Source of the DNA: Halorhodospira halophila
Lineage (GTDB): Bacteria; Pseudomonadota; Gammaproteobacteria; Nitrococcales; Halorhodospiraceae
Length of the DNA: 64,000 bases
Assembly (NCBI RefSeq): GCF_016653405.1
Contig: NZ_NHSN01000016.1
Coordinates: 124,001 to 188,000, forward strand
Reading direction: 5' to 3'
The notes below the pieces were generated by a model that worked only from the letters and a program-made list of their open reading frames with translations, searched no databases and was not told where the DNA came from. Positions 1 through 24,757 of the stretch are shown one piece after another (the stretch's first letter is position 1; every line of letters starts with the position of its first letter). The translations under genes and the position numbers were made by a program.

Positions 1-3000
1 CATGCTCGTCCGTAAAGCTCCCGCGGTCGGCGACGTACAGCGCCAACTCAAGCTCGCGGCGCACCTGCGGATCGCCGGCACGCTCCATCTGCTCACGCAA
101 ACGGCGCGCGGCCTCCCGCCTGATCGCCTTTTTGCGCCGACCGGATTCGTGGCCCCGGTCGTATTCCATCAGGCGCTCGGCATCGAGGGCCTGCTCCTCC
201 TGTTGCCGCTGACGCTCCTGCTCGCGCTCGGAGGGCTGTCCCTGGCGGCTCTCTCGCTCGGCGCGGACATCGGAGAGGTCTTCGTAGGCCGCCCACGCCT
301 TGGCGGGAACGTCGAGCCCGAACTCACGGGCAGCGAGCACCCGGCGCAAGTGGGTCGGGATCTCGCCAATCTCGCCGCCGTCGAAGTAGCCGGCGGCGAC
401 CTCACGGTTCAGGTTATAGCTGTCCTGGACGTTCTGATCGCCGCGGGCTTCCAGGAACTCCTCCAGGCCCTTCTGCCAGTCGTAGGCCCCGGTGTTGCCG
501 GTGTCGTGAAGCAGGGAGCGGACCTTCTTCGGGAAAGCGCCGGGATGCTGCCGGATTAGACCCTGCTCCCGGGCGTCCGCCACGCTCAGTTCGCCGGCAT
601 CGTAGCGCCGGGCGATCTCTGCGCGCTCGGTGAGGGCCGAGTCCGGGTTCTCGCGGCGCCACTGCTTCACGCGCTCGCGGATCTCGGCCACCCGGCCGTT
701 CTTGGCCAGGCCCAGGGGCGCGAGGATCTGCTCCTTGATCGTCTTGCCGGTGAGCCGGTCCACCCCCTCGTCGATCCGACGCGCCGCCTCCAGGGCCTTC
801 TCTGCGCGCTTGCGGGCATCCCCCTTCGACTCGTTCGAGCGCGGCAGCGGGGCGCCGAGTGCGCGAAGGATATGCCGGGGCTGCTGCTCATCAATGGCCG
901 CGGCCTGCGCCTCATCCCGGGTCCGGGTGAACGCATCCTCGTTGAGCACGATCAGGGTGCGCGGGAGTCCTTCGGAACGGATCAGGTTGTAGACATCCAG
1001 CGAGCCCTCCACCGTCTCGAAACCGCGTTCGGGGAAGGCGATGGCGTCGCAGCCCTGCTCCTGCGCCTGGTCGATCACCTGCTGCGCACGGTCCCGGCCA
1101 CGGGGCATCCGCTCGACCTGCATCACGCGGGCATCCGGGGCCAGGCGGAAGGTCAGCACCGAGCCGCGTGCGTCATCGGGCGGCATCCGCGAGGCTTGCA
1201 ACTCCCGCTTGTTCTCGGCCCACTGGCCGAACAGTTCGGCGGCCCGGCGGCTCTCGGTCAGGTAGAAGTGATCGCCCTGGTCAAAGGCGTTCATGCCGAC
1301 GCCGGAACCGGAGCGCTCGGCGTCGAAGCGGTCGAAGTCGATGCCGGCGGCGGTGCCGTGGTACAGGTCACCATCGAGGCCCAGGGCGCTCGCCGTGTCC
1401 TCGGCGCCCTGCGCTGCCGCGGGCTCGGCGGCCGTCTGCTCGGCTGCCGGCTGCTCGGCGGCCTCCACCGGCTGCTGGCGCTCGGCGGGGAGCGGGCGCG
1501 CATCGGAGTCGATGATCTCCTCACCGGCCTGGTTGACGTACACCCCGTCCTCGTCCTCCAGGGCGCGGACCAGTTCGCCGTCGGATGCCTCGTGCGTCGG
1601 CGTGAAGGGCTCGCTCGGGGTGGTCGCGGCCGGCTCCGCGACGGGCTGGGGCTCCGGCGTCGGCTCGGCCACGGCCTCCGGGGACGGCTCGGGGTTGGCC
1701 TCGGCCGGGGCGGCGGTCTGCGCGCTCGGCTCGGCCTCCGTCTGCGGGGGGCGAAGCGCCCAGGCGCCCTCGCCCACTTGCTCCGGGGTGTGGTCGGGGA
1801 GTTTGCGGCTGCGCGCGGCGGCACGGGCGGCGGCCTGCGTCGGGTACGGGCTGCCATCGGCCTTGTAGACCAGTCCCGGGGCGGCTTGGGCGTCGGCGAT
1901 GTCGGTCTGCGCCTGCGAGCCATCGAACAGCGCCCCCTCGCCGGCGCCGGCCGGGACGTGGCCGGCCTCTCCGCCGGATAGGCGCTCATCGACGGCGCGC
2001 TGCTCATCGTGAAGGCGCTGCTGCTCCGGCGTGGCGCCACCGATCATGTCGCCCTGCGTCGGGGTGGGAGTCTCGGCCGGGGCCTCGCGCTGCTCGGGCA
2101 CGGCCTGGCCCAACAGGTCGGTCTGCCCCTCGGCAACCGGCCCCGGGGGCTGCTGCTCCTGCGCCGGTTCCTGCGCTGGCGCCTCGCCCTGCGTTTGCTG
2201 GAGAAGCGAGCGGCGAAGCTCGGGGTCGGTGTGCCAGCGCTGCCACCGCTCGCGCTCGGCCTCCAGGGAGCGCAGCCGCTCGCGGGCCCCGGTTTCATCC
2301 TGCACGTCGATCCCCAGCTCGCGGGCGCGCTGCGGGTTCTTCGACGGGTTGCGCAGAAGCCGGATGTCCTCGCTGATCTCCCGCTGCCGCGCGGCGGCCT
2401 TCTTCGCCAGTTCCTCGGCCTGACGCATGGCCGAGTCGTCGAGCCCGAACAGATCCACCTGCTCGGGCCCGCGGCCCTCGGCGCCCATCGCCTGCACCGC
2501 CTGCATCATGGCGGTGGCCGTCTCGATGCTCTCCCCGCGCTGGATGCGCTCGATGCCGAGCGCCTGCAGCCGCTCGTCCTTGGGTGCTGCCCGGGCTACC
2601 GCTGCCGCTTGCCGGTCCCCGATCTGCTCACTCTGGTGTAGTTGATAAAGGGTTTCCGATCCTTGGGACGCGATGGCGAATCCATCTCGGCCCTTAGCGC
2701 GTTCGAGTAAGCCTCGGCGTTGCGCTTGCGCCTCATCCGTTCCGCGTTGCTTGAAGTACGCCGCATAGTCGGCAACCTCCCCTTGTCCGTCGCGGATGTT
2801 CATTTCCGCATCCGCGACCATGGCATCCTCGCGCGTGAAGCCGTCGGCCTCGCGCACGACCTGTGCCGGAATGGTCTGCTCACCGGTGCGCCGAGCCAGA
2901 TCCAGCCGGTGCCGCCCGGTAATCACCTCCTGGCGGCCGTCCTCACGCTCCCATACCAGGATTGGCGCCGTGCCCAGGCGCTCGTACTGACCGCCCAGGG

Positions 3001-7218: not shown

Positions 7219-7907
7219 GCTGTCACCTCGATTGGTTCAACCCGGCCGGGCTGGATCAGGTAGAACGCCCCGTCGCAATGGACGATGGCGGAATCGTGCG
7301 TGTATCGGTGGACCTGGACCATCGGCGCCTCGTGAACCGCTGCCCACTCGTTGTAGAGCGCCGCCCCGCGCAAGGCGCCCCCGGCATGGGTCAGCCTACA
7401 CAGCGCACCGAGCATGATCCCCAAGGGTCCGTCGAGCCCCGAGGCCGCTCGCATCCAACGCTCCAGGCGCCAGGGCCAATCCTGGATGTTGAGCGCGGTG
7501 TAGACCTCGCCCTCGTGCTCGTAGAGCCGCTGCATCCCGCTCTTGGAGGCCATGTGCAGCGTCGGGCGGTTGTCCGCCTCGACCTTGCCAAGCAGCCGCG
7601 AGTAGCCCAGGGCGCCGAAGGCGTGCGCTTGCCCCAGGCGCACCGCCTCGGCCTTGTCCGAGCAGCGGCGGGTGAGCAGGTTGTGAACCTGCGCACTGGA
7701 ATCGCTGATCCGGTCGATGGCGAAAATGCCGGTAATCTCACCACCATCAAAGACCCCCAGCACCGTGGTCGCCGGGTCGCTCAGGTAGGCGTCCCAAGCA
7801 CTGCCTTGGCCGCACCGGCCCGCGACCTCGGGGCTGTCCATGATTTTCTGTATGCGCCGTGGGTCCGTTGCTTCATAAACGGATTGGGTCAAGATCGTTT
7901 TCCTCAA
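7215..7907 (-). CDS. Phage GNAT-like protein (DUF2824-type) with C-terminal extension
   Basis: 230 residues. The first 150 resemble the GNAT acetyltransferase fold seen in phage late operons (DUF2824-like): a strand pattern with TTVLGVFDGGEITGIFAI, then GQAHAFGALGYSRLLGKVE. The last 80 residues form a separate region of unknown role. It sits between the main fibre gene and the ejection proteins, as in several P22- or T7-like phages where a GNAT-fold protein acts in assembly or modifies a virion component. The acetyl-CoA loop is not clearly conserved, so enzymatic activity is uncertain. Confidence 0.5.
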   Translation of the reverse strand: MRKTILTQSVYEATDPRRIQKIMDSPEVAGRCGQGSAWDAYLSDPATTVLGVFDGGEITGIFAIDRISDSSAQVHNLLTRRCSDKAEAVRLGQAHAFGALGYSRLLGKVEADNRPTLHMASKSGMQRLYEHEGEVYTALNIQDWPWRLERWMRAASGLDGPLGIMLGALCRLTHAGGALRGAALYNEWAAVHEAPMVQVHRYTHDSAIVHCDGAFYLIQPGRVEPIEVTA

Positions 7908-7919
7908 AAGCCCGTGCGC

Positions 7920-10028
7920 TTATCGTTTCAGCCCCGTCGCCGTCATCGTGCCGCCCCGATTTTCAAAGGCCATATTCGAGCCCGTGTACCGGGCCTGGAC
8001 CGTATAGGTATTCGTCCCGGTTCCCGGGCTTTGATCGAGGTACGAAAGGCTCATTGGACCCAACCCCTGCGAGAAGATATACAGGTAGCCAAGGGAGTGG
8101 GCCCACGTCACATAACTGCCGACGTTGCCCCAACTATGCACCGTGCTCCCGTTTTTCAAAAGGCGGGCCTGCACGCGGCCTATGCTGGTGCTTCCCTGGC
8201 TGAATGAGACATACCATTGGCTGCTATCTACAGGAATGTCCGCGCCGAATAACATGGCCATCACGTCAATACGCGCCGGCTGCCCCTCGGAATTGAGATT
8301 CACACTGCCGAGTTCGCGCCAGGAAGTGCTCAGGCTCCTTGCGGTTAGATTGGAACCCCGCGTAATAACGACATTGTTGCCGCCGAGGGTGAGGATATTA
8401 TCAATATCCGCCGAGGTCGCATGGATATTGCCCCGAAAATACCCATTCATAAACTCGGCGGTACCGTCACGCCGGATCCTGAAACCGGAGTTTCCGGGCG
8501 CGAAGTTGTCACTCTGTATGGCGTTCTCAACGCCAAGATCCCATACGTTCAGGTCGCCGATGTACGCCTCGGTCGCCTCCAGGGAATCGGCAGCGATCTG
8601 ATCGACCGCGGCCTGTTTGATCTGCGCGTAGCTGATCGAGGCATCCTTGATGACGGCCTCGTTCAAATAGACCGTCCCGCCGTCCACGACGAAGGGGTAG
8701 ACCTTGCCCTCTTGGCTGTAGTCCACCGACGGGTGGCCGAGCCATAGGCGGTCCACGTTGAGTCCGAAGGTCACCGCATCGCCGTCGGCCTCCAGGCCGA
8801 TGCCACCGACTACCGGCGTCCCGTCGTTGGTGGTCTGGAGCCGAAGGGTCCACTGCGCGTTTACGTCATTGCCGTCTACCGCTACCTTCGCGCGCTGCTC
8901 GATGGCAGCGTTCGCCTCATCGACGGAGCCGGAAAGCTGCGAGACTGTCTCCGCGAGTGCGCCATCATCATCCGCAATGGCCGATTCCAGACGGGCAACG
9001 TCGGCCTTACGCTCCGATTCCTCGTCATCCACGCGCGCGCTAAGGCTATCGAAGGCACTGACCCGGGCGCTCTGCTCCTCGGCGATGGCCGTATCCAGCC
9101 GCGTGACCTCGGACTCGGCATCACCCATGCGGGCCGTCAGGGAGTTAAAGCGCGTGCTGACCGATAGCGCCGAATCCACTTCGGCTATCGTGAACTGGAT
9201 CGCCTGCGCCGCATCACCACCGAAGGCGGCGACCAACTGCCCGAGTTCGATGGCCGCTGCCGACTCCTCATCGGCGTAGCTCTTTAGCTCCGAACGGGCG
9301 TCCGCGATGGCCTGCTCCCGCTCGTTGGCCTCCGCCTGGATAGCCTCCTGGCGCTCGTCGGCCTCCTCGGCAATGCGCGCGGCAACCGAGCCCTCCAGTT
9401 CTGGCGGCCCATCGACCAGATCAATGCGTTCGCGCAGCGTGCGGGCAAGCTGCGATTCGCCGATCTCCCCGGTCAGTTGCTCCAGGAAGTAGTCAGCGTC
9501 TCGGGCCGTCTCGGCGTAGCGCGACTGCGAGAACGGGCCCCGAACCCCAGCCAGGGAGACGTTGCGCACCCAATAGTAGCCACCCCAGCTACTCCCCACG
9601 ATGTCGGTGTGGATGCGCGCGAACTGCACCCCGACCATGACCGCCTGGCCGATGTCGGCGACCTGCGCGCGCCAGATTTCGACGTGGGAGTGGTTGCTGT
9701 ACTGCGGCCGCCCCCAGGTCAGCAGCACCCGGGTAAAAGACGCCTGGGCCTGGAAGTCGGCCACCCGCGGCGGCGTGGTGACGTTCGGCGGCGGCTCGAC
9801 CGGCTCCAGGGTGCCGCCGGCGCCAACACCCGCGCGCAGCCCCTCCTTGAGTTTGGCGAGCCCGATCTCCACCAGGTCACGCCGGGTCAGCTTGGCATCG
9901 AGCGGGTCGCCCCGCTGGCCCTCGCCAAGCTCGATGACCTGCTTCACCGCATCGAGAAACTGGCGCTCGGCTGGGCTGGCGTCGGTGGGCACGCTGGGAA
10001 GCTGGGTGGTCCGGGTCGGATTGCTCAT
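7920..10028 (-). CDS. Tail fibre / host-specificity protein with lambda gpJ-like C-terminal module
   Basis: 702 residues. A helical N terminus (1-75) probably docks on the virion; a fibronectin-III-like domain follows (about 85-170), then a long coiled coil (about 195-380, repeating Glu/Ala/Ser heptads). The DUF1983-type module known from lambda gpJ homologues comes next (about 385-520; motif VDGGTVYLNEAVIKDASI), then a beta-rich tip (about 520-702). The tip-coding DNA, about 7920-8560, is visibly richer in A/T than its neighbours, a sign of modular exchange of the receptor-binding end. Its start overlaps the end of the tail hub gene by 4 bases. Host recognition is inferred from the gpJ-like module and fibre architecture. 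Confidence 0.75.
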   Translation of the reverse strand: MSNPTRTTQLPSVPTDASPAERQFLDAVKQVIELGEGQRGDPLDAKLTRRDLVEIGLAKLKEGLRAGVGAGGTLEPVEPPPNVTTPPRVADFQAQASFTRVLLTWGRPQYSNHSHVEIWRAQVADIGQAVMVGVQFARIHTDIVGSSWGGYYWVRNVSLAGVRGPFSQSRYAETARDADYFLEQLTGEIGESQLARTLRERIDLVDGPPELEGSVAARIAEEADERQEAIQAEANEREQAIADARSELKSYADEESAAAIELGQLVAAFGGDAAQAIQFTIAEVDSALSVSTRFNSLTARMGDAESEVTRLDTAIAEEQSARVSAFDSLSARVDDEESERKADVARLESAIADDDGALAETVSQLSGSVDEANAAIEQRAKVAVDGNDVNAQWTLRLQTTNDGTPVVGGIGLEADGDAVTFGLNVDRLWLGHPSVDYSQEGKVYPFVVDGGTVYLNEAVIKDASISYAQIKQAAVDQIAADSLEATEAYIGDLNVWDLGVENAIQSDNFAPGNSGFRIRRDGTAEFMNGYFRGNIHATSADIDNILTLGGNNVVITRGSNLTARSLSTSWRELGSVNLNSEGQPARIDVMAMLFGADIPVDSSQWYVSFSQGSTSIGRVQARLLKNGSTVHSWGNVGSYVTWAHSLGYLYIFSQGLGPMSLSYLDQSPGTGTNTYTVQARYTGSNMAFENRGGTMTATGLKR

Positions 10029-11920
10029 TGCACCAGCGCCTCCATGCTATCCCCGAAGGCGACCTCATCCACCGTGTCGGTGCCGGTGACCTCCCACTCG
10101 AAGGATCGAGCCAGGTATCCCCCCGGCAAGGGGAAGGGGTCGGGGTCGGTGACCGTATGCTCGTGGACCTGCTCCCCGTCGGCGAACAGGCGGAACGTGG
10201 TGCCCTCGTAGCTGCGGGCGATCACCTGGGCGGCGCCGGCGTTGGCCGGCAGCGGTGCCGGGAACAGCGGTGAGCGGTAGTGCATCGGCATCCGCTGCTC
10301 GGCGCTGTCCCAGCGCTGGATCATCCCGTCGGTGTCGAGAAGGTAGAGCCGGTCATCGAGCGGGTCGCGGTGCCCGGACAGGGCCTCCAGGTCCAGGTCG
10401 ATGAAGCCAAGCTCCGGTTGCCGCGGGTCGAAGATGAACCCGCCGCCGTCGTAGAAGCCAACGTACCGCCCGCCCCACTCGAAGGCGCGGATGGTTTCGG
10501 GCTTGTACGCCGCCCACTCGCGCTCGGTGATGTGCTGATGGGTCAGCAGTTCGGCGCCACGGGTGCTGATCTGCACCAGGCCGGCCGGGGAGGCGTAGAC
10601 GCAGGCATAGCCGAACGAGACCATCGACGCCGGCGAGGCGCACGACTCGTTGACCTCCAGGCGCCGGGCCTGGAGTGCGCGCGGGTCGGAGCCGGTGACA
10701 AGATACGGTCGCCCGGCCGTGACCACCGCGATAGAGACATCGAAGACGCCAAGCGCGGTGATCGACTCATCCAGGCTCAGGCTGTATAGCTCCGGCCAGG
10801 CGTGCGGGCGGTACGGCTCGCTGGCGTAGAGCCGGTTGTCGGTGAACCCGAGCATGAAGCCGCCCGGGTGCGTGTCGAACCCGCGCAGCCCCTTCGGCGG
10901 CGGATCCCAGGCCGTGCTCTCCAGCGCCGTACCCAGGACCGTGCTCCGCAGCGTGTCGGTGAAGCTCTGATCGGAGAGTTCCACCTCGGCGACGAAGCGA
11001 AACTCCGCCCCCTGGTTGCCCGAGGCCGTGCGGTAGATGCGCCGGCGCTCGATCAGCCGCCCGGCGCCCTCATCGACCGAGAGCGGGGGAAGCTCGACCT
11101 CCACCGCCTGCGTCACACCGACCGTGATCTGCACCGGGTCCGGTGTCGGCGGCCCCTCCTCGCCAAGTTCGGTGACCAGGGTGTGCGTGTAAAAGCGCAC
11201 CTCCTGCCACTGCTCCGGGTAGAAGGGGCGGAACATGCCGGAGACGAACGCGCTGTAGGCCACGTTCTCGGCGTCGGTGTTGTTGAGCGTGAAGGTGGTC
11301 TCATCGACGACCCGGATTTGAAAGCCGTCGAGGTGGTTCAGGTACTCGGCCAGGTGGTTCTCGCCCTCCTCCTCATCCGGGCTCTGCGCCTCGATGTCAA
11401 AGCGCACCACCTCGCCGTCCTCCAGGCCGTGCTCGCCGTCGGTGACCACCCGGATAGGCCATTCCCGGTGGATCTGCGCAATGGCCACCGTGGGCGGCTC
11501 GACCGCGCTGACGCCAAGCTCATTGCTCGGCGCGGGCACGCCCAGCCGGTAGCTCGTCACCGGGTACCGCTCACCGCCCTGGTAGGCGGCCGGCGTGTAG
11601 GTGTAACGCGGCTCGTCATAGCGGGGGTCGCCAGCGAAGTAGATCCGCTGCCATACGTCGTCGTTGAGCGGGCCAGGGGCCACGTCCACGCGCCCCGGAA
11701 AGCGCAGCCAGTAATCCTCGCCGCCGACGCGCCAGCGGTAGATCGTGCCGACCGTGTGGCCATCCAGGTCCACCGGCTCCACCGGCTCGGGCTCGCGCAG
11801 GGGGCGCAGCGCGCCGCTGTCCAGGTCGCAGTTGCGCGCCGCCTGGGCCTGCCCCGCCTCCAGCAAACGAGCCGAGCGCCGCGGCCAGGAGCCCCGGAAG
11901 AACCGTGTGCGATGGTGCAT
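10025..11920 (-). CDS. Tail hub/nozzle-like structural protein (P22 gp10 / T7 gp12 position)
   Basis: 631 residues. The middle and C-terminal parts carry repeated beta-strand blocks ending in short polar turns (for example DNRLYASEP, GRPYLVTGSD, DDRLYLLDTDG), which look like beta-propeller blades; a beta-sandwich-like block lies at about 140-330. Large beta-propeller hubs close the tail in P22-like and T7-like virions. The gene lies directly after a fibre-associated gene and before the main fibre, fitting a hub that carries fibres. No signal peptide or catalytic motif is seen. The family is inferred from architecture and order. Confidence 0.55.
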   Translation of the reverse strand: MHHRTRFFRGSWPRRSARLLEAGQAQAARNCDLDSGALRPLREPEPVEPVDLDGHTVGTIYRWRVGGEDYWLRFPGRVDVAPGPLNDDVWQRIYFAGDPRYDEPRYTYTPAAYQGGERYPVTSYRLGVPAPSNELGVSAVEPPTVAIAQIHREWPIRVVTDGEHGLEDGEVVRFDIEAQSPDEEEGENHLAEYLNHLDGFQIRVVDETTFTLNNTDAENVAYSAFVSGMFRPFYPEQWQEVRFYTHTLVTELGEEGPPTPDPVQITVGVTQAVEVELPPLSVDEGAGRLIERRRIYRTASGNQGAEFRFVAEVELSDQSFTDTLRSTVLGTALESTAWDPPPKGLRGFDTHPGGFMLGFTDNRLYASEPYRPHAWPELYSLSLDESITALGVFDVSIAVVTAGRPYLVTGSDPRALQARRLEVNESCASPASMVSFGYACVYASPAGLVQISTRGAELLTHQHITEREWAAYKPETIRAFEWGGRYVGFYDGGGFIFDPRQPELGFIDLDLEALSGHRDPLDDRLYLLDTDGMIQRWDSAEQRMPMHYRSPLFPAPLPANAGAAQVIARSYEGTTFRLFADGEQVHEHTVTDPDPFPLPGGYLARSFEWEVTGTDTVDEVAFGDSMEALVQ

Positions 11921-11931
11921 GGTGATCCCTC

Positions 11932-12477
11932 TTAGAACCGGCTCGGCGCCGTGCGGATCGGGTCGGTGGTGAAGTTGCGGGCCCGCTCAAGCTGGAAGCG
12001 CGAGAGGTGATCGCGGTAGAGCGCGCGGTAGTGCATCCCAAGCTCCGGTGCGCTCCACTCCACCCCGGGCATGACCAGCAGCCGCGCCTTGGCTCCCGCG
12101 GCAATGGCCTCCGCCCCCCTACTCAGCAGCCAGCCGGGCACCTCGTTGGACTGCTCGGCAAGGCCCAGCAGCACGTCGGCGCTGTGCGCCGGCTCGTCGC
12201 CCTCGGGCTCGACACGCTTGGGCGGGGAGAAGCGGGCCGGAATGACCTCGCCTTCCGCGTCCCGGGCGTGGACCAGGGCCAGGGCCACCGAGCCCTGCTG
12301 GGGCTCGAACTCGTAGCCCCCATCCTCGGCCGGGGTCAGCTTCAGGCGGACCTGCCACCCCCGGCCATCGCGCAGCCACTCATTGAGCGCGTGGCGCACC
12401 GCGTTCAACGCCACGACCTTGGGGCAGCCGGGCGCCTCGGGCAGCACGTCCCGCAGCAGCGTGTCGATCTTCTCCAT
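11932..12477 (-). CDS. Phage virion-associated protein of unknown function
   Basis: 181 residues with no recognised domain. The N terminus (MEKIDTLLRDVLPEAPGCP) is helical, followed by a predicted beta-rich middle and a C-terminal helical region ending in an Arg-rich tail with LYRDHLSRFQLERARNF. It sits 11 bases before the hub gene and 12 bases after the repeat-rich tail protein, so it is expressed with the tail genes. Comparable small proteins in phage tail operons serve as neck or tail completion proteins; here the role is only a positional guess. Confidence 0.5.
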   Translation of the reverse strand: MEKIDTLLRDVLPEAPGCPKVVALNAVRHALNEWLRDGRGWQVRLKLTPAEDGGYEFEPQQGSVALALVHARDAEGEVIPARFSPPKRVEPEGDEPAHSADVLLGLAEQSNEVPGWLLSRGAEAIAAGAKARLLVMPGVEWSAPELGMHYRALYRDHLSRFQLERARNFTTDPIRTAPSRF

Positions 12478-12489: not shown

Positions 12490-14706
12490 TTAGTTGTAGG
12501 TGGCCGGGCGATAGAGGGTCTGCGTGCCCTCGGCCGGCCGATAGAGGGTCTGCGTATCGTCGGCCGGGTGGTGGATGGCCCCGTGCAGATAGCCGCCGAT
12601 GCTGCGCGAGGAGGCGTCGGTGCTCGACGACACCAGGGCCTTCGCCACGACGATGGCCCGTGCGCGGGCCACCATGTCGGTGACGGCCTGGACGTTTGCA
12701 GCATCGCCGTCCGCCCACGTCCCCCGGGCAAAGCCGCGGGTAAGGGCCTCGGCCCGTGCGGCCGCCCACCGGCGACGTGAGCCGATGCCGAGGGCGAACG
12801 TGCGGCTGGTGCCGAGCGCGCGCGCATTGCTCGTGCGCTGCCCCGAAGCCAAGGCATCGCCTGCCGAGCGGCCATGGGCGCTGACGCTGCGGACCCGGCG
12901 CGCACGCTCGCCGCCGGCGGTGCTCTCGGCGCTCGTCTGCGCCGCCACACGGCGGGTCCGGGCGGGGATTGCCCCGGCGCGGGTCTGCGCCTGCACCCAC
13001 AGCGAAGTGTCCCCGGCCAGCAGCCCGAGGGCTCGCGCCGAGGTTTCGGCGTGAACAGCGGCACGGCCGCGTAGCTCGATCCCGGCCAGCGCCTCGCTGC
13101 CGGTTCTCGCCCCGGTCGATGCGGCATCGGAGCGAATCAGCCGCGCCGAGGCGCGCACCTGGGCGTTGGACTCGACCCGGGCAGCCAGCAGGCGCAGCCG
13201 GATCGCAGCCGAGGAAAGGCCACTGGTGGCCGCGATGCTGAACGCCCCACGCCGCTCGCGCTTGGGCAGGGCGCGGGCCTCGGTGCTCGACTCGACGCGG
13301 GCCGAGGTGATCCGCCTGCGGCTCACCCGCAAGGCATGGGCGGCCGACTGCGCGCAGGCACGGGCCGACGCCGCGACGATCCGACCCGAGCCGGCCCGGG
13401 CGGAACTGACCGCCTCGGCCCCAGCCTGCGCCGCCGCCGTGCGAATCCCGCGCGCGCTCACCTGCGTGACGGCGCGGATGTCGGTCGAGGCGTTGGTGAA
13501 GACGGTGAAGCCGATCCGTGGCGGGCGAACGCCGTTGATGCCAAGGCTGACGGGGCCGGCAACGAAGTTATGGCCGCCGGAGTGGCGGAAGCCCACCGCG
13601 CCGGTGGGGTGGCTGTTGTTCGTCCCGGTTACTGTCCACTCGGTGGGCTCGCGCTCGTTCGCGGGCCAGACCTTCATGCGCAGGGTAGAGCCCGACGCCC
13701 GGGCGCGCAGGAGGAAAAGCCCACTCGTCGCGCTGGTAACGCCCTCCTCGGCAATGACCGAGATGCTCGACGGGCTGGTGCCTATGACGGCCGAAAGGCC
13801 CGGGATCCCCGTGGTGTTGCGCAGCAGGAAGAAGTACCCGTTGCCGGTCGATTGCAGGCGCAGCGCAACACCGAACCCGTCCGCCCACGACGTGCTGTGC
13901 GAGGGGTAATCAATGGCCGCCAGGACTTCCTGCTCGTCCGTGTCATCGGGCGGGGTGTCCCAGCGGACCACCGAGTAGATGCTGCTATTCGGACGCAGCC
14001 CGACCCCTTCGGGCATCACCGGGCTCTCGGTGACGGTGTACGCCGACATGTCGCCGACAAGCCGGGTGATATTCTCCGGGGTTTGTCCCAGCGCCACCCC
14101 GGTCCACTGCTCCAGGTACTCGTCCGGGACGGCCGGCCGGGACTCGCCGCTTGCACTGACTGCCGTGGTGGCGGTGGCAGCAGCGGACGCCGCCCGGGTC
14201 AAGACCGGCTGGGCGCTCGCCGAGGAGGACGCCAGGACGCCGGCACTGGCCCTGCGGACCCGCAGGATCACCACCTCGTTCGCGCTCGCCGCCGTGCTTG
14301 CCCCTACGCTGGCGCTGGCCTCCCGAAAGCGCCGACGCCCCGCGGCAACCGCCATCGACGTGACCGCCCCCGCGCTCGCGCTGGCCTGCACAAAACGCCG
14401 GCGTCTCGCGGTAGCAGCCATTGAGGTGACCGCCTGCGCGCTGGCCGCGAGGAGACGCTGACGGTTTGCGGAGGCCGCCGTCGAGGTGGACGCCTGCACA
14501 CCCGCGCTGGCCTCCTTGGCCGCCCGGGTGGTGAACGCCTGCCACTCGGACCAATCACCAGCCTCGTCGCCCTCGACCGCGCGCACGCGCCACTGGTAGT
14601 CGGCGCCGGGGGCCAGGCCGGTCAGTTCGTAGTGCGTGTCGGGGATGCCCTCGACCAGCGTGCTTGGCCCGCCGAGTTCGCGCCACTCCAGGTCAAAGGT
14701 GGTCAT
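12490..14706 (-). CDS. Repeat-rich tail protein: partial FN3, Ala/Arg repeats, lectin-like domain, more repeats
   Basis: 738 residues from the ATG at 14706 (an in-frame TTG lies 12 bases upstream). Residues 1-60 are strands C to G of a fibronectin-III domain (FDLEWRELGG, YELTGLAPGADYQW); the missing first strands are encoded at the end of the preceding gene in another frame. Then come about six repeats of 20-23 residues rich in Ala, Ser and Arg, a lectin-like beta domain (about 195-390) paralogous to the preceding gene product, and about 14 further repeats. The C terminus has two copies of TQTLYRPA. The alternating small/polar pattern suggests a beta-helical fibre shaft. ATGA overlap with the upstream gene couples translation. 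Confidence 0.6.
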   Translation of the reverse strand: MTTFDLEWRELGGPSTLVEGIPDTHYELTGLAPGADYQWRVRAVEGDEAGDWSEWQAFTTRAAKEASAGVQASTSTAASANRQRLLAASAQAVTSMAATARRRRFVQASASAGAVTSMAVAAGRRRFREASASVGASTAASANEVVILRVRRASAGVLASSSASAQPVLTRAASAAATATTAVSASGESRPAVPDEYLEQWTGVALGQTPENITRLVGDMSAYTVTESPVMPEGVGLRPNSSIYSVVRWDTPPDDTDEQEVLAAIDYPSHSTSWADGFGVALRLQSTGNGYFFLLRNTTGIPGLSAVIGTSPSSISVIAEEGVTSATSGLFLLRARASGSTLRMKVWPANEREPTEWTVTGTNNSHPTGAVGFRHSGGHNFVAGPVSLGINGVRPPRIGFTVFTNASTDIRAVTQVSARGIRTAAAQAGAEAVSSARAGSGRIVAASARACAQSAAHALRVSRRRITSARVESSTEARALPKRERRGAFSIAATSGLSSAAIRLRLLAARVESNAQVRASARLIRSDAASTGARTGSEALAGIELRGRAAVHAETSARALGLLAGDTSLWVQAQTRAGAIPARTRRVAAQTSAESTAGGERARRVRSVSAHGRSAGDALASGQRTSNARALGTSRTFALGIGSRRRWAAARAEALTRGFARGTWADGDAANVQAVTDMVARARAIVVAKALVSSSTDASSRSIGGYLHGAIHHPADDTQTLYRPAEGTQTLYRPATYN

Positions 14707-15416
14707 GGCAGTTCCCAACCCAGCCGGGCGGAGCCTGCGGTGATCTGCGTGCTCTGGAGACTGACCGGGATCGGAGGCGGGCCACCCGGAGCGGGCGGCG
14801 GATCACCGTCCGTCCCGGCCGCCATCGGCCCAATAAAATAGGGATGGTTCTCCCGGTGAGACAGGCCGACAACGCCGGCGTCCCATTGGCTGTTGGTCGC
14901 CTCCAGCGTCCAGGCGGCAGGCTCGGGGGTTTCGTAAGGCCACACCTTGAGGCGCAGGTTCGAGCCCTGGGCCTGGGCGCGCAGGCTCCATAGGCCACCC
15001 GTGGACGGGGCAATCACCGTCTCGGTGTAGATATTCAGCCCCGTAGTGCCCTGGCCGATGGCAGCCCGCAGGACGTGATCCTCGCCCCAAACATGCTGCG
15101 AGTAGAGCCCGAGGTGATACCCCCCGCCGGAGAGGTTCGAGCGCAGCATCACGCCGATGTAGCACTCCGTCCAGCCTGGGGTAATGCTCGGGTAGTCCAC
15201 CACGGTCAGGACTTCCTGATCCTCGGAGGGGAAAACGTCTACCCAATGGGCGTGGGTCATCGGACTGGAGGAAGGCGGGCGGGCCCCTACGCCGTCGGGC
15301 AGGGAGCCACGCGACTCGACGATCCAGTTCTGGTCGGCGCCGCCGTAGTAGCCAACGATATTCGGCGGGGTAGTGCCGATGGGCACGCCGGTCCAGTCCA
15401 CTTGGTATTGAGCCAT
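14703..15416 (-). CDS. Lectin-like tail protein ending in the first half of an FN3 domain
   Basis: 237 residues. Most is a single beta-rich, laminin-G/concanavalin-like module beginning YQVDWTGVPIGTTPPNI and ending near residue 200; a closely related module lies inside the next gene product. After a Pro/Gly linker, the last 20 residues are strands A and B of a fibronectin-III domain (ITAGSARLGWELP), which then stops at TGA. The remaining strands continue in the next frame after ATGA. The pair therefore looks like one former fibre gene cut in two, or two coupled genes whose products complement each other. Carbohydrate binding is inferred from the fold only. Confidence 0.55.
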   Translation of the reverse strand: MAQYQVDWTGVPIGTTPPNIVGYYGGADQNWIVESRGSLPDGVGARPPSSSPMTHAHWVDVFPSEDQEVLTVVDYPSITPGWTECYIGVMLRSNLSGGGYHLGLYSQHVWGEDHVLRAAIGQGTTGLNIYTETVIAPSTGGLWSLRAQAQGSNLRLKVWPYETPEPAAWTLEATNSQWDAGVVGLSHRENHPYFIGPMAAGTDGDPPPAPGGPPPIPVSLQSTQITAGSARLGWELP

Positions 15417-15456
15417 CAGACACCCCCGACGCGCCGCATCGTTAGCCGCTCACCCA

Positions 15457-15819
15457 TCAGTCGATGGACACCTGGACCTCGCCGGCGGGGAACCGGAGGA
15501 TGTCGCCCTCCAGGATCTCCCGGGCCGTTGCCAGGGGGGCGATAGCCAGGCGCGTGCCGCCGGAACTGGCGTCGTAGACGGCCACCTCATCGACCTCGCC
15601 CCAGGTGCCGGTCGCCTCGGAGAACTCCACGTCGGCGTTGGTGAACACGGCCCGGCCACTGCTCGATGCCGCGGTCGGAGCGCCGAAACTCGCCGCCTGG
15701 CGGCTGTGGCCGTTGCCGCTCACCTCACTGCCGCCGACACGGGCGGCCAGGTAGACGGTGCCGCTGCGAAAGACATGATCGAGAGCCATGTCGCGTGCTT
15801 CATTGGTAAAGCCTGTCAT
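15457..15819 (-). CDS. Small phage tail/structural protein (Gp80-like family)
   Basis: 120 residues. The opening MTGFTNEARDMALDHVF and the central blocks EVSGNGHSRQAASFGAP and NADVEFSEATGTWGEVDEVAVYD match a widespread small phage structural family in which a short helix is followed by a compact beta domain ending in RFPAG. Members occur near tail-fibre genes and are thought to be minor tail or fibre-base proteins. It lies between the lectin-like tail gene and the adaptor genes. Family recognition is by pattern; the exact role is not known. Confidence 0.55.
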   Translation of the reverse strand: MTGFTNEARDMALDHVFRSGTVYLAARVGGSEVSGNGHSRQAASFGAPTAASSSGRAVFTNADVEFSEATGTWGEVDEVAVYDASSGGTRLAIAPLATAREILEGDILRFPAGEVQVSID

Positions 15820-15842
15820 GGTGGCCTAGTCCTCTTGTCGTG

Positions 15843-16502
15843 CTATGCCCGCTGGTGGGGCTCTTGGGTGCGGGGGTCTGTGCGCTGGGAGACAGGCACC
15901 TTCTCGCCAAGCGCGTGGTAGAACCACTCGTAGTGGGCTTGGGCCTTCGGCTCGATGCCCGCTCGGGTGTCCTTGAGCCAGGCGCGGTAGAGCATCCAGT
16001 GGCGCAGCGGCTCGCGGTAGTGGCTGGGCATCTGCCCAAGGGTCGGGTAGGCGCCAACCTCGAAGGCCGGAGGCTGCTGGATGTAGACGATCTGAACGCG
16101 CGTGCCAGGGCGCACCGCCGGCACGGTGTGAAAGACCCGGGGCTGGCGCTCATCCCACAGGTAATGGTCCACCTGATCGGCCTCGGGGCGGCCGCGCCAG
16201 GCCGGGTCGAAGCGGGCCAGGGTCGCCCCATCGACCCGCGTGATCGCCTCCCCGGGAAGGCCCTGGTCCACGTTCGCGGTGACCTCCATCAGCCGCACGC
16301 CATCCTCGGGGATGTGGTGGGTCACGCCCCGCTGCAAGGCGACCGAGGCCACCCGCTGGAACGCCTCGGGGCGCACCAGGGCAAGCTGGTCCAGGGCGGC
16401 GCGGAGCATGTCGGAGAAGTGCTCATCGGTCCACGCCGGGTAGTCGGGGTGCTCGATCAGGTCAAGCTGGACGCTGCGCACGAGGGCGGCGGTATCAAGC
16501 AT
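15843..16502 (-). CDS. Head-tail adaptor-like protein, second paralogue
   Basis: 219 residues, paralogous to the 225-residue protein encoded immediately upstream. Both share an N-terminal helical region, a central VxLMxVxxN strand, an F/YxWDER or FDERxP..F block and a C-terminal helical hairpin of the kind seen in phage adaptor proteins. This copy has LMEVTANVDQG, LWDERQPRVFH and YREPLRHWMLYRAWLKD. It overlaps the first copy by 8 bases. By position between capsid and tail genes it probably forms part of the connector below the portal, like P22 gp4. The assignment to the DUF6682-like group is an inference. Confidence 0.6.
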   Translation of the reverse strand: MLDTAALVRSVQLDLIEHPDYPAWTDEHFSDMLRAALDQLALVRPEAFQRVASVALQRGVTHHIPEDGVRLMEVTANVDQGLPGEAITRVDGATLARFDPAWRGRPEADQVDHYLWDERQPRVFHTVPAVRPGTRVQIVYIQQPPAFEVGAYPTLGQMPSHYREPLRHWMLYRAWLKDTRAGIEPKAQAHYEWFYHALGEKVPVSQRTDPRTQEPHQRA

Positions 16503-17172
16503 GGCCGATGCCCTCCTCCACGCGCTGATGCGCCCGGACCTGGTGCATATCCCGCTGCGCCTCGATGCGCCCGGTCACGGCCGTGACGAACTGCTCGTAG
16601 TAGAGGGTGGCAAGCTGCGGGCGCGGGGTGCTCGACTTGGCGTGCGCCCGGGACATGACGTAGTAGTAGATCGGGGTCTGGAATACGTCATCGAGCGTGA
16701 TGGGGCTCTCCAGGCTCTCCACCTCGGCCGGGGATGCGGAGTAGACGATCTCCAGGTGGCCGGCCGGATCCGGTTGCCCCGGGGTGACGTAGAACGTCTT
16801 GGGGTCGCGCTCATCGAAGACGAAGTGCTTGACCTCCGCGCTCGGTGGCTCCGTGTGCCAGTCCGGGCGGGTGGCGTCGAGGATGGCCCGGCGCACGGGT
16901 CGCACGGCACGGCCGGGGGTGTTGCCGTCACCGCCCATGTTGCGCACCACGTCGATCAGCGTGATGCCCCCCTGCGGCAACCGCTGCCGGGTGCCCGGGG
17001 TCAGCGCCACCACGTCGTTGAGGGCGTTGGCCGACGGCTTGAGAATGACGATCTCGCGCTGCGCGTCGGAGACATAGGTAAGCAGGTCGGCCGACCCCCA
17101 GCGCACGCCGGCTTCATCGTTGAGCGTGCTCGAAGCCCGGTCGAGGATCATCTTCGCCGTCACCGTCGGCAT
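16495..17172 (-). CDS. Head-tail adaptor-like protein (DUF6682-type), first paralogue
   Basis: 225 residues. The pattern ILDRASSTLNDEAGVRWGSADLLTYVSDAQREI is typical of phage adaptor proteins of the DUF6682 group; downstream come ITLIDVVRNMGG, VFDERDPKTFYV and a C-terminal helical pair with YYYVMSRAHAK. The protein most likely binds the portal from below and sets the interface to the tail. It starts 4 bases after the stop of a small acidic head gene and is followed, with overlap, by a diverged copy of itself. Two adaptors in a row suggest a two-ring connector. Confidence 0.65.
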   Translation of the reverse strand: MPTVTAKMILDRASSTLNDEAGVRWGSADLLTYVSDAQREIVILKPSANALNDVVALTPGTRQRLPQGGITLIDVVRNMGGDGNTPGRAVRPVRRAILDATRPDWHTEPPSAEVKHFVFDERDPKTFYVTPGQPDPAGHLEIVYSASPAEVESLESPITLDDVFQTPIYYYVMSRAHAKSSTPRPQLATLYYEQFVTAVTGRIEAQRDMHQVRAHQRVEEGIGHA

Positions 17173-17176
17173 CGTC

Positions 17177-17575
17177 TCAGCCCCCCGTCTCCAGTCGGCG
17201 GATCTCCGCGGCGAGCGACTGTGCCGAGCGGCGCTTGTCGAGCTTCACGCCGTGGCGCTGCTCGGCGTACTCGGCGAGCACGTCGCGGGAGAGCTTACGC
17301 ACGGGGTAGAACTCGCCGCGGATCTCGATCACCAGGTCTTCCGCGCCCTCGCCGTCCTCCTCGCCGCTCTCGGGCTGCTCGCCCTCCTGGGCCTGCTTCT
17401 GCCCGGTGTCGGTCGCGCCGCTGACCAGCGCGTACTGATCGGGGTGGCGCTTGAGCATCCGCTCGGCGATCTCCTGCCCGACCTCCTGCACGTCGCCAGG
17501 GCCGGACCAGAACACGCCGCTGCCGTAGAGCCGATCCCGGTGGGTCGGCTCGCGGCCGATGTACTTCACCTTCAT
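17177..17575 (-). CDS. Small phage head protein with SAP-like C terminus
   Basis: 132 residues in three parts: an N-terminal domain (1-60, MKVKYIGREP to HPDQYALV), a strongly acidic Gln/Glu linker (60-85) and a C-terminal helical unit (95-130, VRKLSRDVLAEYAEQRHG to AAEIRRLE) that resembles the small SAP/HeH motif. Proteins of this form are common between capsid and adaptor genes in phages and may be minor head or head-completion proteins. The ATG at 17575 is preceded by a GGAGG ribosome site just after a strong hairpin. Function is not known. Confidence 0.5.
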   Translation of the reverse strand: MKVKYIGREPTHRDRLYGSGVFWSGPGDVQEVGQEIAERMLKRHPDQYALVSGATDTGQKQAQEGEQPESGEEDGEGAEDLVIEIRGEFYPVRKLSRDVLAEYAEQRHGVKLDKRRSAQSLAAEIRRLETGG

Positions 17576-17591
17576 GGGGCTATCCTCCGGC

Positions 17592-17612
17592 GGGGCGGCG
17601 CGTGGCCGCCCC
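17592..17612 (-). other. Intergenic hairpin between decoration and minor head genes
   Basis: Perfect 8-bp stem GGGGCGGC/GCCGCCCC with a 5-base loop, in the only untranslated gap between the decoration protein and the next head gene. It has no U-tract on the minus strand, so it is more likely an mRNA processing or stability element, or a partial brake on expression, than a full terminator. The next gene's GGAGG follows directly. Confidence 0.5.
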
Positions 17613-17623
17613 GGATTGCGGGG

Positions 17624-18025
17624 TTACTTGCCTTGCCAGTCGTAGGTGGCGACGACGGTGATCTCACCGTCCACGCCGGCGCCGAGCGAGGCGATGATGT
17701 CGCAGACCTCCTCGACCACCTTGGGGGCGTGGTTCGAGTCGGCGCGGATGCGACCAGCACTGGCCAGCGACTTGGAGCCGGTGAAGTAGGTCGCCTCGGT
17801 GTCGTTCTCGGTCATGTAGCCGAACGAGGCGCTGGCCCCGCTGCCGCAGGCACCGTGGACCACCATCAGATCCAGGAGCCGGGTGTGGGCCGGCAGGCGA
17901 ATGAAGTGGACGGTATCGCCGCTGGAGCCATCGACGTTGAGGGTCGCGGTGGCCGTGGCGGTGTTGCCGTACTCGCCGGCATGGATGATGTCGGTGTGAA
18001 GCTGCTCGAAGTTGATGCGAGCCAT
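17624..18025 (-). CDS. Capsid decoration/stabilisation-type protein
   Basis: 133 residues, predicted all-beta, with no charged N-terminal signal. Blocks such as ATATATLNVDGSSGDTVHF, FIRLPAHTRLLDLMVVHGA and DGEITVVATYDW are typical of small beta-sandwich proteins encoded directly after phage capsid genes and often called head decoration or structural proteins. It lies 60 bases after the capsid gene stop and is followed by a strong hairpin, consistent with high, separately tuned expression. The family is not certain; the capsid-adjacent position and fold pattern carry the call. Confidence 0.6.
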   Translation of the reverse strand: MARINFEQLHTDIIHAGEYGNTATATATLNVDGSSGDTVHFIRLPAHTRLLDLMVVHGACGSGASASFGYMTENDTEATYFTGSKSLASAGRIRADSNHAPKVVEEVCDIIASLGAGVDGEITVVATYDWQGK

Positions 18026-18085
18026 GATTCAGTCCTCCAGGGATTCAGAGAGAGGGGACGGCGCTGGGCCGCCCCCATGGCCGGC

Positions 18086-19330
18086 TCAGGCGGTCGGATC
18101 CGGCGCGTAGGAGTCCACTGCGATCACGCCGTGGTCGGTCATCAGGCCGGTGTCCTGGCGCTTGAAGCGGACCTTGGCCTTGCCGCCCATGAACGCCATG
18201 GAGACCTCCATGCCGTTGTCGTGGTCCACCTTCTCCTCGTGCCAGTTCGCGTGGTAGCCGCTGGTGCCGTGGTTGCCATACGCCTCGGCGAGCGCCTGGG
18301 CGCCGAGCAACAGGGCCCGGTCCACCGGCGCAGCCGCCTCGTTCTCGACCACAGCACCGCTGGAGTTGTGGCTCTTGACCGGCGAGCCCTGGTAGAAGCG
18401 AACCGCGCGGTTGTGTTTCTTCACGAGGATCCCGTTCCACATGCCGCACTCGCCGAGAAACAGCGGGTGGTTCCAGCCCTGGCTGCGAGCGTGGGCGTTC
18501 GAGATGAACGTGCGCCAGTCGTTGCCCGACGTGCTCTGGAGGAACTGGTACCACTGCCGGCTGGAGATCGTGAGCAGGTAGAGCGGGTTGTCGTCGGCCT
18601 GCGGGTCCATGTTGCCGCTGGCGTCTTGCAGGCGGATCGGCTGGAGCGGGAACACATCGTCATCGAGGGTCGCCCGGAGCATGTCGATGGTCTCCAGGGT
18701 GATGATGTTCGTACTCCCGATCTGGCTCACGTTGTCCGCGCTGCCGGCGCAGAAGTACCGGCCGTAGGACGGCGGCGCCACGTCGTTCACCACGATGTCG
18801 GCGAACTCCTCGTGGCTCTCCTTGGGCACGGCCCAATCAATGCCATCGTCGTCACCGCGGGCACCGGCCATGTGGACGTGCGCAAGCTGATCCTCCAACC
18901 GTGCGCCGTAACCAGCCAGGTTGGCCTTGGCGATGCCGCGAAGCTGGTGAACAGTGCGCTTTTGCGTCATGCGACCGCCGGTGTCCACGCCAGCGCGGTA
19001 CTGGTCGATGCGCAGGTCCATGGAACTGAACGTCAGATCCATCATGCGCCCGGCCAGCTTGCGATCACCCATCGTCGGGCGGCCGGTGATGATGTTGAAC
19101 AGGTCCACGCTCACCTGGTCGCCGGCGCCGGTGCTCAGGTCGCGGATCTGCACGATGGGATAGTCCGGGCTGGTCTGCCCCTTGAGCTTGGACTCCGCCC
19201 CGGACTGCTTGGGCGCGGGGCCGGTCAGTCGGCGACGGAACGACGGCCGGCGCTGGGTCTCAGCGAAGGCCGCAACGGAATAGAGCTTCTTGGCCAGCGG
19301 AGAGCCGACCGGGATGTTGGTACGAGCCAT
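18086..19330 (-). CDS. Major capsid protein, N4-gp56/DUF4043 family
   Basis: 414 residues. The pattern of this capsid family is visible throughout: an N-terminal MARTNIPVGSPLAKKLYSV, then PIVQIRDLSTGAGDQVSVDL, a central QKRTVHQLRGIAKANLAGY, and the C-terminal blocks PLYLLTISSRQWYQFL and NPLFLGECGMWNGILVKKH-like sequence. It follows the scaffold gene by 18 bases and precedes the decoration protein. The HK97-like fold is known for the family. No protease gene is seen nearby, consistent with assembly on a separate scaffold without a cleaved delta domain. Confidence 0.85.
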   Translation of the reverse strand: MARTNIPVGSPLAKKLYSVAAFAETQRRPSFRRRLTGPAPKQSGAESKLKGQTSPDYPIVQIRDLSTGAGDQVSVDLFNIITGRPTMGDRKLAGRMMDLTFSSMDLRIDQYRAGVDTGGRMTQKRTVHQLRGIAKANLAGYGARLEDQLAHVHMAGARGDDDGIDWAVPKESHEEFADIVVNDVAPPSYGRYFCAGSADNVSQIGSTNIITLETIDMLRATLDDDVFPLQPIRLQDASGNMDPQADDNPLYLLTISSRQWYQFLQSTSGNDWRTFISNAHARSQGWNHPLFLGECGMWNGILVKKHNRAVRFYQGSPVKSHNSSGAVVENEAAAPVDRALLLGAQALAEAYGNHGTSGYHANWHEEKVDHDNGMEVSMAFMGGKAKVRFKRQDTGLMTDHGVIAVDSYAPDPTA

Positions 19331-20497: not shown

Positions 20498-20522
20498 AAA
20501 AAGCCCGGCTCAGAGGCCGGGC
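20498..20522 (-). terminator. Intrinsic terminator overlapping the portal stop codon
   Basis: On the minus strand GCCCGGC, a 6-base loop and GCCGGGC are followed by TTTTT. The stop codon of the portal gene (20510-20512) sits in the loop. Because capsid and scaffold genes lie downstream, it must be partly read through or suppressed by antitermination; it may balance portal against capsid. Confidence 0.7.
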
Positions 20523-22693
20523 GTTTCGGTGTGCCGCGTCTGCTGCGGCGAGGGGGGTGGGCCGTGTCGTGGCCCCTCCGGTGTCTGTTGCGCTGCCGCC
20601 TGTTCATCCCGGCGCAAGCGGGCCCCGCGCTCGAACAGTTCGGCGTGCTGGGCGGCCTCGGCGCGCATGTCCTCGTGGGATCCGCGCTCGATCTCGCTGA
20701 TGGTCTTGGCGGTCTGCGCGGCCTGGTGTTCGGTATCGACGCCGGCGGTCTTCTGCGCCATGGCGATGGCGCGCTGGGCGTCGGCCATGGCCTTCTCGGC
20801 ACGAGCCTCCAGGTCGCGGACCCGGGCCTCGCGCTCGCGCAGTTCCAGCTCGGCGGCCTGCTGCTGCATCTCGGCCTGGCGCTGCTCGGCCTCGGCCTGC
20901 TGCTGCGCTTGAAGGGCCTCCTCCTCGGTCTGCGGCTGCTTGCTGCCGCCGCCCATGCCGGTGACCGCGCGGATGCGCTCGACGAACTCCTTGCGGTTGG
21001 GTAGGTCGGAAGCCTCGATGATGATGTCCATCACGGCCGCCTGCAGTTCTGGGGGGAGCGTCTGCGTCAGCTCCATCATCCGCGCGAGCAAGTGCTGTCG
21101 GTACGTCGTGCTGCTCGGGGTCTCGTCGAGGGCGACCTGGGTGCGCAGCTTGAGGATGTCGTTGGTCCGGTACTCGTAGCCGAGCTCATCGTGCTCGGGG
21201 TGGTTCAGGAGGACATCCTTGACCTCGCCGGTGACCGACTCGACGCGCACCGGCAGGTCGGTCTTCTGGCCCAGGTCTTCGACGAGCATCGACATGAGCA
21301 ACTCGGCGGCCAGACGCCGGCCGTCCTGGTAGTTCTCGATGATCTTGCCAAGCACCTGCTGGCCCTGCTCGACCAGGCTTTTGATCGCCTCGCCCGACTG
21401 CCCGGATCCGGCGCCGCGACCCATCATCTCGTGGAATAGGCCCGAGGCGTCCTGGATGTTCTGCTTCGCCTCCTGCATCACCTCGAACTGCTGCGGGTTA
21501 AGCCGCGCGTCGGTGTCCACGTTGAACCCATTGGCGTTCTGCCGGCTCGGGTTCGTGATGATGTAGGCGTCCGAGCGCGCGACCTCCTGCGCCGCCTGGG
21601 CATGGTCGTCCACCGCATCCCGGTCGGCGATCACCCGGCGGGTGGAGAGGTTGTAGAGCATCTTGCTGCGCCGGGCGTTGACCTCCTCCTGCGGGGATTT
21701 CATCGCGCGGATCAGCCCGTAGGGGGCGCCGCTGCGATCCTGCCTGTAGCCAACGAACGGCACATAGGGGAAGTAGCCGTGCTTGTACGGCGAGGGGCGG
21801 TCGGCGAGCTGGTGCGGGCCAAGATAGTAGGCCACGCGCAGCCGGAAGGAGCGGGCCTTGCGTGGCGTTACGAGACCCGCGGCAACGGCGTTCAGGTGTC
21901 GGCGGTCTTCGCGGTTGAGTTCCACCACCCGGCCATCGGGCAGGTCGAGCACCCACATATCGGTGTGGACGCGGTACCACACTTCGTAGAGCGCAAGCCG
22001 GTGGCGCTCGGTGTCCAGCCACTCCTCCTCTTGTAGCGAGGTGGTCTGCTCGATCTCCCAGGAGCGGCCAAGTGAGACATCGACACCGTTCGGGTCATCC
22101 CACGCCGGGCGCTGGGCGACCGACTGGCGGATCAGCCGCTTGTGCCGCGGGAAGTGGCCCTCCAGGTCGTCGGCGTCGTACCAGCGTTTGCGTACCAGGT
22201 ACCGGGCGTCCCGGAGCATCGGGTCGCGGGAGCGGTAGTCGAACCAGATTTCGTCGCGGTGGACGGCCTGCACGCGGTACGGGTACTTGAACGGGTCGGA
22301 CTCGCGGCTGACCTCCAGCCACCCGATGCCGACCTTCACTTGCGATTCGTGGGCCTCCGAGCACCCGGTGTTGAAGCGTGCGAGGCGCACGGCCTCCTGG
22401 AGTTTGACGTTCAGGGCCTCGGCCACCTCGGTGGCCTGGTCGTCCTCGCCGCGCACGATGGGGTCGGTGCGGGTACGCGCTTCCAGGCCGAGCACGGTGT
22501 CGATAGTTGGGCGAATCAAATTGACGACGATGGGCGCGATGCCCAGCTCACGCATCCGCTGCATCGTCTCGGTATCAAGCTGATTGCCGTCGTAGAAGTC
22601 GGCCTCGCGCGCGGCCTCGGCACGCCATGCGGGCTCATAGCGCAGGTCGGTGAGGATCTGCTCGATGCGCTCGCGGGGCAGTGGCTTTGTCAT
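20510..22693 (-). CDS. Portal protein, P22-like
   Basis: 727 residues, almost the length of P22 gp1 (725). Recognisable features are the N-terminal MTKPLPRERIEQILTDLRYE, FYDGNQL near residue 50, PIVVNLIRPTIDTVLGLEAR at about 70-90, the wing with WFDYRSRDPMLRDARYLV and the central TRRVIADRDAVDDH. The last 130 residues are a Gln/Glu/Ala-rich coiled coil (about 590-690), fitting the barrel at the DNA-entry vertex. It lies 5 bases after the large terminase gene. The portal forms a dodecamer that receives the terminase and later the adaptor. Confidence 0.85.
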   Translation of the reverse strand: MTKPLPRERIEQILTDLRYEPAWRAEAAREADFYDGNQLDTETMQRMRELGIAPIVVNLIRPTIDTVLGLEARTRTDPIVRGEDDQATEVAEALNVKLQEAVRLARFNTGCSEAHESQVKVGIGWLEVSRESDPFKYPYRVQAVHRDEIWFDYRSRDPMLRDARYLVRKRWYDADDLEGHFPRHKRLIRQSVAQRPAWDDPNGVDVSLGRSWEIEQTTSLQEEEWLDTERHRLALYEVWYRVHTDMWVLDLPDGRVVELNREDRRHLNAVAAGLVTPRKARSFRLRVAYYLGPHQLADRPSPYKHGYFPYVPFVGYRQDRSGAPYGLIRAMKSPQEEVNARRSKMLYNLSTRRVIADRDAVDDHAQAAQEVARSDAYIITNPSRQNANGFNVDTDARLNPQQFEVMQEAKQNIQDASGLFHEMMGRGAGSGQSGEAIKSLVEQGQQVLGKIIENYQDGRRLAAELLMSMLVEDLGQKTDLPVRVESVTGEVKDVLLNHPEHDELGYEYRTNDILKLRTQVALDETPSSTTYRQHLLARMMELTQTLPPELQAAVMDIIIEASDLPNRKEFVERIRAVTGMGGGSKQPQTEEEALQAQQQAEAEQRQAEMQQQAAELELREREARVRDLEARAEKAMADAQRAIAMAQKTAGVDTEHQAAQTAKTISEIERGSHEDMRAEAAQHAELFERGARLRRDEQAAAQQTPEGPRHGPPPSPQQTRHTETPGL

Positions 22694-24703: not shown

Positions 24704-24757
24704 GGTTTTGATCCTGCTTCTACGGAGCCCGGTCACGCACACGAACCGCACCGGTGA

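Follow-up and report, generated by a model that had tools for sequence, protein, structure and literature searches.

In a prophage of Halorhodospira halophila, a single fibronectin type III (FN3) domain is divided between two adjacent open reading frames: strands A-B end a 237-residue protein, and strands C-G begin a 738-residue protein. Both frames lie on the minus strand of the window, the 64,000-nucleotide stretch analyzed here (contig NZ_NHSN01000016.1, positions 124,001 to 188,000), and all coordinates count from its first letter. The two frames are probably the halves of one former virion fibre (or fibre-like structural) gene of ~975 residues that would have been split by a frameshift and would restart at an ATGA; confidence in this reading is modest.

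The first protein (237 aa, 14703..15416, minus strand) comprises a ~200-residue domain that is beta-rich by low-confidence prediction, a proline-rich linker and the C-terminal FN3 strands A-B. This assignment draws on the open frame, a weak phrog_24476 match and the FN3 join tests described below. The 3' end of its gene (14706..14777, minus strand) encodes strands A-B, the C-terminus reading ...ARLGWELP before the TGA at 14705-14703. The second protein (738 aa, 12490..14706, minus strand) begins at the ATG at 14706 (MTTFDLEWRELGG...) and runs to a stop at 12490. Strands C-G are encoded by the 5' end of its gene (14527..14706, minus strand) and are followed by Ala/Arg/Ser-rich repeats of 20-22 residues, a second copy of the ~200-residue domain and further repeats; the evidence here is the open frame, a Pfam fn3 match over profile positions 30-80, an AlphaFold model of residues 1-67 with FN3 matches in the PDB, the repeat period and the domain copy.

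The ATG of the second gene overlaps the TGA of the first as ATGA (14706-14703, minus strand). The two frames therefore share four bases, with the downstream frame in a -1 relation to the upstream one and open for 32 codons upstream of its own ATG. The original prediction had placed both frames and the ATGA at exactly these positions, with strands A-B closing the 237-residue protein and C-G opening the next frame at 14706; the coordinates and the join tests bear this out, and 237 plus 738 gives the 975 residues it had named. The ATGA itself is not special in this prophage, where a 4-base overlap occurs in 4 of 23 consecutive pairs among the 24 genes listed. The unusual part is the split domain.

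Profile comparisons show that strands A-G are not all carried by one polypeptide. On its own, the 67-residue head of the second protein matches Pfam fn3 (PF00041) over positions 30-80 of 84 with 32.7 bits, and the whole second protein scores 28.4 bits, above the curated cut-off of 25 bits, whereas the 31-residue tail of the first protein alone matches no Pfam family. When tail and head are joined, the match extends over positions 3-80 of 84 and rises to 44.0 bits, in agreement with the earlier claim that the halves together make one FN3 domain. A control FN3 model was built without any window sequence, from 10 of 11 domains extracted from other genomes (one near-duplicate being dropped) and two PDB segments. 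With this model the joined stretch scores 36.9 bits, against 26.7 for the head by itself and 9.4 for the tail by itself; the match of the lone tail falls in the N-terminal part, at positions 5-26 of 97. Only 1 of 2000 shuffled tails scored as well as the true tail under the same model, as did 4 of 2398 other 31-residue stretches of the prophage (windows over the FN3 itself left out) when set before the head. A rougher, earlier FN3 model had included the joined sequence, which makes its scores at this locus circular.

Among PDB sequences, the joined stretch matches consensus FN3 designs and natural FN3 domains, with FN3con (4u3h) matched at query residues 2 to 76. AlphaFold2 predicts the 67-residue head with a predicted local distance difference test score (pLDDT) of 83. 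The model aligns with FN3 chains only from about residue 29 of a 91-residue FN3 onward (4m6a_B 29..92, Z 7.1), so strands A-B are missing from the head. A Foldseek search with this model gave a best E of 2.8e-3 and a list rich in FN3 and cytokine-receptor chains, with others too; VIA gave Z values of 7.0-8.2 in 50 rows, which by the tool's own warning can be common. In a survey of the 54 genomes of the order, 49 fn3 places were listed in 18 genomes. The junction FN3 is the only Pfam fn3 match in the host genome and starts at profile position 27; the other 48 places, in 17 further genomes, start at position 16 or earlier.

The coding signal changes at the same place. Under a codon model trained on 20 other prophage genes, the frame switch fits best at 14709-14710, within a few bases of the ATGA, with nearby positions almost as good. 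By this model, the first frame is coding-like over 14760-14731, and downstream of the junction only the second frame looks coding, and strongly so. The ribosome-binding energy at the second start (14706) is -4.8 kcal/mol, a value matched by 30% of 354 non-start ATGs, whereas five of the six other overlapping starts in the prophage, the three other ATGA starts among them, reach -7.2 or stronger. The B-C loop of the joined FN3, measured from its core Trp to the aromatic residue that follows, is 6 residues long, compared with 8 in 34 of 46 comparison domains; these 46 are the domains, of 62 gathered by an FN3 model that had drifted to 56 positions, in which the loop pattern was measurable. A small deletion would fit the short loop.

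A break in the reading frame of one fibre gene is favored because the core of the domain is cut, because the ribosome site of the second start is weak, unlike most nearby overlapping starts, and because the B-C loop is short. In such a scenario, the codons of the FN3 B-C loop would have gained or lost a small number of bases, and the upstream frame would then have run into a TGA overlapping an ATG of the downstream frame. The first half would be translated from its own start. The second half, if made at all, would come mainly from ribosomes that terminate at the TGA and restart at the overlapping ATG. Evolution would be unlikely to set a gene border inside a beta-sandwich core and leave the Trp-bearing B strand to the other chain. 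Gene order in relatives also points toward a single gene, since one repeat-rich gene, not two, follows the gp80-like gene in Burkholderia phage CSP3 (285 aa) and in contig L014 (387 aa), although neither product is detectably homologous to the two proteins described here. The original prediction had offered three options, and a frame break in a ~975-residue fibre gene is the best supported of them by the cut between strands B and C, the frame switch, the weak ribosome site and the short loop; two coupled chains are possible but nothing found requires them, and a -1 frameshift finds neither a slippery heptamer nor a stimulatory fold.

Several observations weigh against a broken gene. Single-base deletions placed at random in the prophage genes yield an ATGA at most 6 bases from the break in only 154 of 21246 cases (0.7%), and any stop within 6 bases in 1205 of 21246 (5.7%). 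Given this rarity of an exact ATGA, the restart codon would be either a coincidence or the reason the break was kept by selection. Both halves are open without further breaks, and the terminase, portal, capsid and adaptor genes are likewise intact. No unbroken relative that would prove one earlier gene was found among the phages, plasmids, viral_contigs, genome_contigs and sampled genomes. The overlapping start of the large terminase gene (24141, -4.6 kcal/mol) is as weak as the second start. Over the proline-rich linker (14850-14761) the first frame has a coding signal close to zero, which leaves the placement of the switch point dependent mostly on about the last 15 codons. The loop argument is weak, as FN3 B-C loops vary, the pattern misplaces a few of them and many of the comparison domains come from one genome. 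Finally, an earlier independent FN3 model, the one that had drifted to 56 positions, showed no gain from joining (24.5 bits joined, 25.2 for the head alone).

Interrupted structural genes of prophages, a known kind, resemble this locus in that one domain architecture extends over two adjacent frames with the switch at the border. The differences are that the new stop here exactly overlaps a start codon and that the searches found no unbroken relative to prove the event. If the case is ordinary, it adds one more frame-broken prophage fibre gene. It also carries a caution for annotation: with an ATG start and a 738-codon frame, the second gene would pass as a separate gene.

The strongest competitor to a broken gene, itself unlikely, is a functional two-chain fibre in which termination-reinitiation at the ATGA couples the genes and the A-B hairpin of the first chain completes strands C-G of the second, the FN3 acting as a joint between proteins. 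The overlap of stop and start at 14706-14703 is a known termination-reinitiation arrangement, and three further 4-base overlaps occur in the prophage. As gene pairs coupled by an ATGA do, the two genes share a strand and a cluster, and their products would interact; the weak ribosome site and the cutting of a folded domain by the gene border set them apart. Subunits encoded by coupled pairs usually start and end with whole domains. The C-G fragment alone is predicted with fair confidence (pLDDT 83), yet the cut deprives the second chain of the core Trp strand, and the searches for relatives yielded no second example. Published work bears on both sides. On average, no other short distance between neighbouring prokaryotic genes is nearly as common as a 4-base overlap, and among closely spaced pairs, subunits of heteromeric complexes are over-represented (PMC10666635). 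In 4 of 5 E. coli pairs, reinitiation fell or ceased once the ribosome site was removed; such a site helps without being required in every case (PMC6728339). The weak site at the second start here thus counts against coupling. When a monobody FN3 is cut in its CD loop, the two peptides can refold together in vitro, with a Tm of about 45 vs 78 C (PMC11666773), so FN3 halves can reassociate. In the T5-like phages DT57C and DT571/2, two fibre proteins, LtfA and LtfB, take the place of one (PMC4728585); both carry receptor-recognition domains, and the excerpted text on them mentions no split domain (PMC4728585). Because 4-base overlaps are common, close pairs often encode partners, a ribosome site can be dispensable and a cut FN3 can refold, a two-chain fibre that works, perhaps poorly, is possible. 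The fuller version of this idea is somewhat less probable; in it, the FN3 would be a built-in joint of two separately translated phage proteins, with the ATGA coupling holding the chains together at the ribosome for assembly during synthesis. If the halves do reassemble, this would be natural domain complementation across a stop/start overlap, and it would show one way for a broken fibre gene to remain functional and turn into two genes. To our knowledge, domain complementation of this kind comes only from engineered FN3 fragments.

An assembly or sequencing error, with the strain itself carrying one continuous gene, is improbable: the break is known from one draft assembly (45 contigs) in which the locus is single-copy, but the only run of at least four equal bases in 14650-14850 is a TTTT at 14838, leaving the surroundings of the junction free of long homopolymers, and the completeness of the genome is put at 99.86% and its contamination at 0.11%. 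Least supported, and very improbable, is programmed -1 ribosomal frameshifting that would yield a 975-residue fusion beside the 237-residue protein. The frames stand in the required -1 relation, with the downstream frame open over those 32 codons before its ATG, and one report describes phages such as T3, A2, A118 and PSA that use -1 or +1 frameshifting to extend structural proteins with Ig-like parts (PMC5009743). These cases share with the present locus a beta-sandwich module at the frame border of a virion protein and the -1 relation. There, however, the Ig-like part is an extension, whereas here the border falls inside the domain, which is itself cut, and a slippery site is lacking; it has been suggested that the Ig-like parts landed out of frame by chance and were later expressed by frameshifting (PMC5009743). 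As had been predicted, the 32-codon overlap holds no classic slippery heptamer (0 of the X-XXY-YYZ type), although four XXX tetramers are present. The downstream RNA fold is ordinary (z -0.39 over 111 nt, with 65 of 200 shuffles at least as stable; pseudoknots lie outside this test). No second copy of the 501 bases around the junction turned up when the host's own genome was searched, which leaves switching between copies without support, and such inverted repeats as lie close by are either imperfect or short.

The comparison with related phages proposed in the original prediction was run, and no relative of the junction, split or whole, appeared in the collections and genome sets searched. 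Among phages, tblastn gave one weak match for the first protein (Streptomyces phage Dagobah, 27% of the query) and one for the joined FN3 (Microbacterium phage MO526, 59% of the query), with none for the second copy of the ~200-residue domain or for the second protein. The plasmids held no match for the first protein. The viral_contigs held none for the first protein, the joined FN3, the second protein or the domain query A1; the domain query A2 found three loci there, with the domain only. In the genome_contigs, A1 had no match and A2 had one, a stand-alone 235-residue protein of Ancylobacter polymorphus. The pattern scans rely on a handful of short peptides and may overlook distant relatives.

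Four partly overlapping genome sets were also searched. Only the host's own genome matched among the 193 relatives and the 369 genomes of the class. The 54 genomes of the order gave the own genome and G027, with long frames containing many FN3 domains, and the 398 genomes of the phylum gave the own genome, G497, with the stand-alone protein, and G502. The G502 match lies in frame with an efflux-pump-like protein, and it was regarded as chance. The window-free FN3 model was run over 43 neighbourhood loci, drawn from capsid relatives, CSP3 and 31 contigs with a gp80-like gene. It gave three weak matches at E below 1 (L017, L009 and L011), none of which is known to adjoin a gp80-like gene. The match in L017 is an FN3-like stretch in a 735-residue tail-tip-like protein (6775-8982, E 0.0023). 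A full-text literature search for phage FN3 or fibre genes that are split, or that combine a frameshift with reinitiation, found none, which is not a claim that the case is unpublished.

Each half of the split pair carries one copy of the ~200-residue domain, one in the first protein (14703-15416) and one inside the second (13501..14121, minus strand); sequence comparison finds them 39% identical. The domain has distant relatives in the stand-alone 235-residue protein, which belongs to an Ancylobacter polymorphus prophage (L022, L026, L027), and in parts of the tail-type proteins of L024 and L025. AlphaFold, given a 2-row alignment of the first protein, returned an unusable model (pLDDT 40). 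The best match of the domain profile among PDB sequences was a weak one to beta-neurexin (E 0.09), from which no fold is claimed, and NCBIfam gave nothing useful for either protein. Beyond the FN3, the second protein (12490-14520) is Ala/Arg/Ser-rich with a repeat period of 20-22 residues. The 285-residue CSP3 protein encoded after the gp80-like gene has a 20- and 22-residue period in common with it, and the two gave no significant alignment (best E 0.22).

The locus is the structural gene cluster of a podovirus prophage, and Burkholderia phage CSP3 is a relative. On the minus strand lie the terminase (22699-24141 and 24113-24751), a P22-type portal (20510-22693), the major capsid protein (Phage_capsid_3, 18086-19330), two SU10-type adaptor genes (16495-17172 and 15843-16502), a gp80-like gene (phrog_240, 15457-15819) just upstream of the first gene of the split pair, a phrog_437 gene (11932-12477) and a phrog_511 internal virion protein (10025-11920). 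The Bcep22-like/Lessievirus-like set of P22-type portal, Phage_capsid_3 capsid, SU10-type adaptor, phrog_240, phrog_437 and phrog_511 is thus present in one same-strand cluster, but no genus placement is claimed because the gene order differs from that of CSP3. Related adaptor and gp80-like genes occur in CSP3 and its kin, and a gp80-like gene is present in 22 phage records. In three capsid relatives (L006-L008, 60% identical), one adaptor-like gene is directly followed by a phrog_437-like gene; these contigs end 1.0 to 1.4 kb past the latter, too early to tell whether fibre genes follow.

The host is a purple phototroph, with a 2.86 Mb genome in 45 contigs and two reaction-centre genes. The two SU10-type adaptor genes of the prophage are arranged in tandem with an 8-base overlap, and both match one same stretch in L006-L009, L013 and L014. 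An integrase gene (42315-43286) lies beside a tRNA-Met gene, and together they (42315-43475) likely mark the prophage attachment end. A thymidylate synthase gene lies within the prophage region on the plus strand (40941-41906). Contig L014 encodes, at 14941-18211, a 521-residue fibre-type protein followed by a 340-residue reverse-transcriptase-like protein, a pair that resembles a diversity-generating retroelement.

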